Below are positions 47,628 to 48,074 of a stretch of DNA of 48,074 bases, in pieces; the first letter of the stretch is position 1, and the number at the start of each line of letters is the position of its first letter. Source of the stretch: Lysobacteraceae bacterium NML95-0200 (GTDB lineage: Bacteria; Pseudomonadota; Gammaproteobacteria; Xanthomonadales; Xanthomonadaceae). Under the pieces are notes generated by a model. It made no database searches. It saw only the letters and a program-made list of their open reading frames with translations, and had not been told where the DNA came from. The DNA lies in NCBI GenBank assembly GCA_002798255.1, contig NWQQ01000015.1:1-48074 (forward strand), written 5' to 3'. Both the position numbers and the translations under genes were made by a program.

Positions 47628-47704
47628 GCGCCTGTAGCTCAGCCGGATAGAGTAGCGGCTTCCGAAGCCGTTGGTCGGGGGTTCGAATCCCTCCAGGCGC
47701 GCCA
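47628..47704 (+). tRNA. tRNA-Arg (CCG anticodon)
   Basis: A complete 77-base cloverleaf: acceptor GCGCCTG with CAGGCGC, D stem GCTC/GAGT, anticodon stem GCGGC/GCCGT around loop TTCCGAA with anticodon CCG, a 5-base variable loop, T arm GGGGG-TTCGAAT-CCCTC, discriminator G and an encoded CCA end at 47702-47704. Confidence 0.95.
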
Positions 47705-47819
47705 TCTTCGATGGCTTCCTTCCGTGATTCCCTGCCCTTCGCGCATAGCGCTCCGGGCGTTCGAAGCTGCATGCACCTGCGGTGCATAAACGCAGCTTCT
47801 CACCCCTCCAGGCGCGCCA
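47705..47819 (+). repeat. tRNA-tail repeat unit 1 (115 bases)
   Basis: Starts right after the tRNA CCA and ends with CCCTCCAGGCGCGCCA, a copy of the tRNA 3' end. Inside lie two hairpins. The first is GCCC and GCGC pairing with GCGC and GGGC (about 47734-47758). The second has outer stem GAAGCTGC/GCAGCTTC (47763-47799) and inner stem ATGCACC/GGTGCAT around TGC. Confidence 0.8.
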
Positions 47820-47936
47820 CTTTCAGTGTCTTGCTGTCGGGATTTCCGGCCATCGGGCTTGCATGCCCGATGGCGCTCAAGGCGATATGTGCCTGCGGCA
47901 CAAAAGCATCGCCTTTCGCCCCTCACAGGCGCGCCA
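47820..47936 (+). repeat. tRNA-tail repeat unit 2 (117 bases)
   Basis: Same layout as unit 1, ending with CCCTCACAGGCGCGCCA. Hairpin one is GCCATCGGGC/GCCCGATGGC (47849-47874). Hairpin two has outer stem AAGGCGAT/ATCGCCTT (47879-47915) and inner stem TGTGCC/GGCACA around TGC. Stems differ from unit 1 but remain paired. Beyond it, ATCTTCGATGGCT repeats the bases that follow the tRNA itself. Confidence 0.8.
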
Positions 47937-47960
47937 TCTTCGATGGCTCAGACCGCTGAC

Positions 47961-47989
47961 AAACCCCGTGTTTTTGGCACGGGGTTTTT
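47961..47989 (+). terminator. Intrinsic terminator after the tRNA repeat units
   Basis: AAACCCCGTG and CACGGGGTTT form a 10-bp stem around a 7-base loop, followed by TT. It suggests that the tRNA and both repeat units are transcribed as one RNA of about 360 bases. Nothing recognisable lies in the remaining 85 bases. Confidence 0.85.
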
Positions 47990-48074
47990 CAATGGCATGC
48001 TGGGAGCCCTTTGAAGGTCAGAAGCATGCGATGCAGCTTGGTCGTGTTGAAGGCGTTCTGTGAAGGATTCGTGC

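Follow-up and report, generated by a model that had tools for sequence, protein, structure and literature searches.

The tRNA-Arg(CCG) Locus

The window analyzed here is a stretch of 48,074 nt, contig C10 of the 2.38-Mb genome of Lysobacteraceae bacterium NML95-0200, and the features described in this section all lie on its plus strand. A tRNA-Arg(CCG) gene with an encoded CCA end (47628..47704) is found by ARAGORN and by Rfam (RF00005, 67 bits, Rfam span 47628-47701). The last 16 nt of this gene (47689..47704) comprise the 3' strand of the T-stem, the 3' strand of the acceptor stem, a G, and the CCA, and they are the first occurrence of a tail that recurs behind the gene at spacings of 115 and 117 nt. 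The first base past the CCA is the start of unit 1, which is 115 nt long (47705..47819) and consists of a leader, a two-hairpin core, and a copy of the tail. Unit 2, of 117 nt, follows at 47820..47936.

Two covariance models describe the core. R1 was built from 20 tRNA-linked units and R2 from 16 dispersed copies without an adjacent tRNA. In unit 1, the core (47734..47805) is matched by R2 over its full length (model positions 1-71, 62.4 bits, E 4e-11). Its hairpin 1 spans 47733..47759, and its hairpin 2, with an outer stem, an inner stem, and a 4-nt internal loop on the 3' side, spans 47763..47799; both are seen in the fold and in covariation. The tail copy that closes the unit (47804..47819) repeats all 16 nt of the tRNA 3' end exactly. 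In unit 2, the core (47848..47921) is again matched at positions 1-71 (53.0 bits, E 4e-9), hairpin 1 folds at 47849..47874, and hairpin 2 folds at 47879..47915 with other stems in the same architecture. The third tail copy (47926..47936) has its last 11 nt identical to the tRNA, with one base inserted before them. Core copy 2 is absent from the whole-genome R2 listing despite its 53.0 bits in the search of the window.

An earlier note on this DNA had described two units behind the tRNA, 115 and 117 nt long, with three occurrences of the tRNA 3' end and two hairpins per unit, the second of which had changed its stems in pairs while keeping a TGC loop. ARAGORN, Rfam, the direct repeats, the sequence, and the fold all agree with this description. 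Compared to dinucleotide shuffles, the folds of the two units have z = -2.9 and -3.1, with 1 of 200 shuffles equally good for each, and the tRNA and array folded together reach z = -7.6, a value equaled by none of 100 shuffles. An Rfam search of the window returned nothing but tRNA at gathering level and only sub-gathering matches up to E = 5. In plasmid records, the 20 listed of 207 matches cover tRNA-length stretches only. A hairpin in the trailer that pairs the CCA end with the leader was considered and rejected as a general feature; it occurs in 6 of 20 arrays and in 2 of 21 loci without units.

The Repeat Behind the Array

Behind the array, on the plus strand, lies the end of a separate dispersed repeat (47946..48074) that holds a terminator-like palindrome at 47957-47991. 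The repeat is about 127 nt long or more and has 15 copies in the genome, 14 of them beyond the window. All 15 copies extend to a contig end or stop at most 24 nt short of it, a stem-loop stands directly 5' of the repeat in 15 of 15 copies (by eye), and a search of the genome turned up no contig carrying the body of the repeat. A mobile element that targets terminators has probably come to lie here, with this repeat as its end. The earlier note had placed a terminator at 47961 and had read from it that tRNA and units form one transcript. The palindrome is present, but because it belongs to the 15-copy repeat, neither its origin as the array's own terminator nor the single transcript is supported. 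A pattern-based terminator scan of the window did not list the palindrome, probably since its A/T stem pairs consume its T-run.

Resemblance to the TLRs of E. coli

The parallel that had been drawn with the repeats behind E. coli tyrT, members of the tRNA-linked repeat (TLR) class, is borne out by anatomy. According to PMC8144298, the E. coli TLRs include rtT/RttR behind tyrT-tyrV and RrA, RrB, and RrF behind 5S genes, with one to five repeats per locus. As in E. coli, the array here stands directly behind a tRNA, the tandem number varies (1 to 6 cores per tRNA-Arg(CCG) locus across relatives, 1-5 repeats in E. coli), and each repeat closes with a duplicate of the upstream gene's 3' end (RttR in MG1655; PMC8144298). 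The identity extends over 18-19 bp at the 3' end of the TLRs, as against 16 nt exact in unit 1 and 11 nt plus an inserted base in unit 2. The core, however, is unrelated, and here it is also dispersed away from tRNAs. R2 gave no match on the tyrT-tyrV stretch of MG1655 up to E = 10. The E. coli tyrT unit also splits a partial T-loop copy (TTCGA/.../ATCC, by eye), whereas here the end of the element joins the T-stem directly. The Rfam family RtT gave no match in the window, whether at gathering level or with the threshold relaxed to E = 5; E. coli records carry the annotation RtT sRNA. Of 5426 E. coli genomes, 4695 contain matches to a 101-nt query from the RttR core, at 1 to 14 places each (median 3); the copy number of this repeat varies, too. 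Judged by its anatomy, the array is a TLR, built on an unrelated dispersed palindromic core for which searches of open PMC found no prior description.

The Core as a Dispersed Element

The earlier note had treated the hairpins as something special to the tRNA, and this is not supported. The core belongs to a dispersed family, as seen in R2 matches, in a census of copies, and in a sequence pattern. R2 is built from dispersed copies only and still finds both cores of the window end to end. The element, 70-72 nt in most copies listed, reads GGCC, hairpin 1, GGCGTTCG, hairpin 2 with its 3' internal loop of 4 nt (frequently AAGC or AAAC), and CTCA-CCC (CTCACCC). The exact pattern GGCGTTCGN{24,54}CTCACCC occurs 2-26 times per genome in six genomes, compared to 0-1 times per strand for the reversed control pattern; some matches in G054 and G022 look coincidental. 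The highest number, 26, is that of G131, where a host palindrome without the element is found beside filled copies. Within one genome, copies can be near-identical; from one genome to another, paired changes set their stems apart.

The census used R2 at E <= 1e-5 on 12 genomes of 11 genera and gave 119 matches. The flanks of 117 were analyzed, the other two copies sharing a fetched region with a counted copy. The ends of the copy are as expected in the orientation used in 116 of the 117. A tRNA gene lies within 500 nt of only four copies, and in three of these the element stands behind the tRNA with a copied tail (Arg CCG twice, Arg ACG once). The idea of a tRNA-derived small RNA, like that of an RNase sponge, is weakened because so few copies have a tRNA nearby. 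In the sequence retrieved around 37 R1 loci, a same-strand upstream tRNA was present in six and tRNAs on the other strand in one. A search of the literature in open PMC, outside of which most subscription papers lie, found no description of the core.

Several classes of small repeat resemble the element in part. Like REP/RAYT sequences, it is a lineage-specific palindrome, near-identical within a genome, with a hairpin that has an asymmetric internal loop. According to PMC2817692 and PMC3686654, one end of the REP palindrome is marked by a GT(A/G)G head. This class was rejected: the element lacks the GT(A/G)G head, its consensus is GGCC...CTCACCC (reverse complement GGGTGAG), and its two hairpins are different. 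The Xanthomonas REP sequences given in PMC2817692 also differ from the core. MITEs, too, are small, non-coding, dispersed, and hairpin-forming, but the GGCC.. and ..CTCACCC ends are not inverted repeats and the two hairpins lie side by side, so this class was rejected as well. A fixed short target duplication of the MITE kind is not established, since duplications are either undetected, as in most copies, or 19-68 nt long.

The likeness to Rickettsia palindromic elements (RPE) and in-frame REP sequences is that of short scattered palindromes, some of which are read in-frame within conserved proteins (PMC3733652 and PMC10969869). One examined case of the element, in the valS gene of genome G236, is read in this way; RPE was compared by description rather than by sequence. 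RPEs differ in being about 150 bp long, compared to 71 nt here, and the present element comes with duplicated gene ends and carries tRNA tails.

Maintenance of the Fold

Covariation was measured in two sets of sequences. A1 holds 20 hand-picked tRNA-linked units and excludes tandem units that are nearly identical to one another as well as loci L042 and L052, whose spacers differ. A3 holds 16 copies of 71 nt without an adjacent tRNA, chosen for a near gap-free alignment from a wider set of 25 copies (A2), whose copies of 70, 72, 75, and 78 nt were dropped from the pair counts; at one A3 locus, a tRNA-Thr lies at a distance of about 1.3 kb (ARAGORN on loci). For A1, the share of paired cells is 87.8%, changes on both sides are seen in 18 of 23 pairs, and the covariation score is 0.458, compared to 0.171 in shuffles; none of 500 shuffles reached these measures (pairing, two-sided changes, score). 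In A3, 91.7% of cells pair and 15 of 25 pairs are changed on both sides, again reached by none of 500 shuffles. Because the structures were drawn from folds of the same sequences, the percentages of paired cells are biased in their favor. Relatedness among rows inflates the shuffle controls, but a control in which partners are slid by 1-3 columns keeps this relatedness, and the pairing measures collapse in all slid controls of both sets. The number of further pair types is unexceptional, being reached by 40 of 500 shuffles for A1 and by 273 of 500 for A3.

The fold is thus maintained both behind tRNAs (A1) and in dispersed copies (A3), with stems that co-vary across relatives, as the earlier note had expected. 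The unit-based model R1 matches in 310 of 395 sampled genomes of the family (E <= 0.001). The stems could also stay paired through palindrome-correcting mutation or gene conversion, without selection on an RNA.

Duplicated Gene Ends

In this genome, a gene end is duplicated across the element at five loci, namely the tRNA-Arg(CCG) locus of the window and four others. The four duplicate 5' ends, those of a ubiG-like methyltransferase gene, purA, an NAD-epimerase gene (2 tandem copies), and tRNA-Ala, the last adjoining tRNA-Ile; names were assigned by eye from translated starts. In this order, the duplicated stretches are 59, 55, 68, and 24 nt long, with 55, 54, 66, and 22 nt identical. R2 supports the ubiG and purA copies at E <= 1e-8. 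For the epimerase and tRNA-Ala copies, R2 lists none at E <= 1 and R1 gives weak matches (0.017, 0.030, 0.08), and these copies were included for their matching layout. In this layout, the right end of the element joins a C-run in the gene, with the intact gene to the left and the gene end repeated to the right. In the window, the right end joins the CCC of the T-stem. The duplicated-gene-end layout was not seen at another weak R1 match (0.124), C23:11839. The copy at the tRNA-Ala gene (C32:3656) lies in reverse at the tRNA 5' end, and the 5' portion of that tRNA is present twice, an arrangement also observed at the tRNA-Arg genes of loci L035 and L052.

Across the census, an exact direct repeat of at least 14 nt flanks 8 of 117 copies, compared to 15 of 2340 and 41 of 2340 in controls. 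Flank duplication is real and enriched, though it is not the rule, and as a universal signature of insertion it was rejected. In an earlier collection of 85 copies, 41 had repeats that measured 14 nt or more, as against 3 of 85 and 4 of 59 in controls, but these copies came mostly from around tRNA-linked loci and give no rate. The duplicated lengths of 19 to 68 nt in the measured cases are unlike those of ordinary transposition.

In the G236 valS gene (locus L149), the element lies inside the gene and the frame is open throughout. Compared to the Thermus ValRS (1gax), residues 398-420 of the fragment are unmatched, with a net excess of about 23-26 residues.

Units Behind tRNA Genes in Relatives

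Units behind tRNA-Arg(CCG) are present in 6 of 16 genomes of the same genus (G006, G007, G009, G010, G011, and G013), those of G009 with weak support from the model (E 0.011), and there is no unit behind this tRNA in the other 10. The named carriers of the array among the Lysobacteraceae (Xanthomonadaceae) are isolates NML07-0707 and NML08-0793 and Lysobacter silvestris. Tandem units are near-identical within G010 and within L053, and several genera have similar trailers and the same junction behind the tRNA. These arrays at one junction of one tRNA could alternatively be old and kept by function.

A pattern scan of a collection of species genomes gave 25 stretches, and R2 supports the core in 13 of these (E <= 1e-6). 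A further match, in L061 from a Salinisphaerales metagenome-assembled genome, has E 2.5e-4. TLR-like anatomy with spacers unrelated to the core is found in L047, L054, L058, L059, and L062. The spacers of L042 and L052 differ from the core; R2 misses L042 altogether and misses L052 in the orientation of the unit, its single match there being on the other strand at the 5' side of the tRNA (5e-4). R2 has no match on L049, which had been aligned with the set. L038, L056, and L057 were rejected as arrays and consist of adjacent full tRNA genes only.

In a class-wide sample of 274 genomes, R2 (E <= 1e-5) matches nine, three of the family and 6 of the 271 outside of it. Three of these six matches stand behind tRNAs with their own tail (Pro GGG twice and Ser TGA; ARAGORN). 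One comprises two reverse-oriented copies beside tRNA-Leu-like 5' halves (by eye), where the contig ends and ARAGORN finds no intact tRNA, and the remaining two stand at contig ends. This placement suggests a preference for tRNAs outside the family, in numbers that are small. At L203, in another family, the duplicated block consists of the tail of tRNA-Pro together with a terminator-like trailer (67 nt, 65 identical).

Origin of the Array

The reading we favor, with moderate confidence, is that the array consists of two copies of a mobile palindromic element of roughly 71 nt that, on inserting at the end of a gene, can duplicate the gene end next to it, followed by tandem amplification. The earlier note had listed a transposition or integration by-product among its suggestions, and this is the best supported of them. 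The element would have lodged behind tRNA-Arg(CCG) with its right end joining the C-run inside the gene. The stretch from the C-run through the gene end would have been duplicated in the process, leaving an intact tRNA upstream and a tail copy after the element, and the block of tail, leader, and core would then have changed its copy number in tandem. The spread may have taken place through a mobile process that needs the fold, as single-stranded DNA or as RNA, with the target duplicated at insertion, while tandem growth may have come from unequal recombination or exchange or from slippage; the order of insertion and duplication is itself conjectural. In a compact genome, an insertion that straddles a gene end would be tolerated only where the duplication leaves one gene intact, which would produce TLR anatomy where the gene encodes a tRNA and the arrangement seen at purA and ubiG where it encodes a protein. 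In favor of the mobile element are the membership of the two cores in the same family as the scattered copies, the conserved fold, the duplicated gene ends at five loci of this genome, the open-frame insert in valS, and the variation in tandem copy number between species.

A mobilizer was sought through the PF01797 domain and none was found; the domain is absent from this genome and from two sister genomes. Near 17 PF01797 matches in 10 genomes, a search for the element gave three weak model scores, the best of 12.4 bits (E 0.14), and the three of these 10 genomes that lack PF01797 all carry copies of the element. Y1/RAYT transposases are unlikely mobilizers.

A functional small RNA linked to the tRNA is the strongest of the other explanations, though we consider it unlikely. 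Here, the array would be co-transcribed with the tRNA and cut after each tail copy by the enzymes that process tRNA 3' ends (RNase E or similar), and the two-hairpin RNAs would bind a protein or RNA partner. Binding to partners has been proposed for the RNAs released from the rRNA-linked TLRs RrA, RrB, and RrF of E. coli, and the 3' end of RrB lies just past the repeated 5S tail, and RrB binds Hfq and CsrA (PMC8144298). The covariation of tRNA-linked units across genera and the trailers and junction shared by several genera fit such an RNA, as does the lack of a listed terminator between the tRNA and unit 1, in a scan that also missed the palindrome at 47957-47991. However, the same core co-varies away from tRNAs, one copy lies within the open reading frame of valS, and 10 of the 16 same-genus genomes do without a unit behind tRNA-Arg(CCG). 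Also, a terminator-like hairpin with a T-run stands between tRNA-Arg(ACG) and the element in three relatives (L100, L101, and L113), as it does before the element at tRNA-Pro(GGG) in L203 and not in L208 (all by eye).

Neutral tandem duplication of a hairpin-rich trailer, with paired changes arising from quasi-palindrome correction and with neither mobility nor function, is improbable. The near-identical tandem units within species (G010 and L053) are what slippage or unequal exchange predicts. As the whole story, neutral duplication is refuted by the dispersed copies and by the R2 matches in the window; the core is mostly of a uniform 70-72 nt, it occurs in the open frame of a conserved gene, and its unpaired 3' internal loop and CTCACCC end have been kept. 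Such duplication may still explain the growth of the array.

The 3' ends of tRNA genes are classic attachment sites. Site-specific integration scars, in which the tail copies would be attL/attR-like remnants of integrative elements using the tRNA 3' end, are nevertheless very improbable. The units measure just about 115 nt and contain a folded core that is conserved. The element is arranged in the same way at ubiG and purA, whose 5' ends are not tRNA attachment sites, and this largely refutes scars as the origin of the units themselves, even if integrases may use the tails secondarily. Two observations had pointed this way. In G004 (C14:487475-539465), a second match, which is partial (query 31-111), consists of part of a tRNA-Arg(CCG) and the start of a unit. 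The intact tRNA is 52 kb away, a distance that would fit an island, as if a genomic island had entered the tRNA and displaced the array. In L012, L019, and L042, a common sequence, CCTGTGACA.ATCTGTGCC, follows the tRNA or tail copy and is probably the end of an integrative element.

Implications for tRNA-Linked Repeats

According to PMC8144298, the first description of TLRs dates from 1978, and no function was known for them until that paper's work on the rRNA-linked ones. Two copies of a dispersed element, each joined to a copy of the tRNA tail, suggest that this old and unexplained class may have been left behind by mobile elements and may not consist of RNAs specific to tRNAs. In this genome and its relatives, the TLR architecture is built from an element that is also found at the ends of protein genes and, in one case, within such a gene, and compensatory changes preserve its fold. 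The mobile structured element makes the question of TLRs a testable one, and the tail copy that ends each unit would gain an origin without invoking RNA processing. There is also a caution in these results, since covariation together with linkage to a tRNA is no proof of a tRNA-derived small RNA. The finding also points to a mobilizer yet to be found in a large, well-sampled bacterial family.

A broader proposal, offered tentatively and on the whole doubtful, is that the element represents a family of structured mobile elements of the Gammaproteobacteria, of which searches in open PMC found no description. These would move through a folded single-stranded intermediate (RNA or single-stranded DNA), insert at C-runs near gene ends with target duplications of variable length, and prefer tRNA 3' ends. 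TLRs in general, those of E. coli included, would be their footprints, later usable as small RNAs.

TLR-like arrangements with other spacers were also observed. In L054 and in L047, where the gene is tRNA-Arg(TCG), partial tRNA copies stand behind tRNA-Arg T-arms with the T-loop split by a hairpin insert (TTCGA / insert / AATCC); read by eye, the T-loop is divided just as it is behind E. coli tyrT. Copies with a spacer unrelated to the core are found behind tRNA-Arg(TCG) in L058 and L059 (Desulfobulbaceae) and in L062 (Thermodesulfobacteriota), with an array of three in L059.
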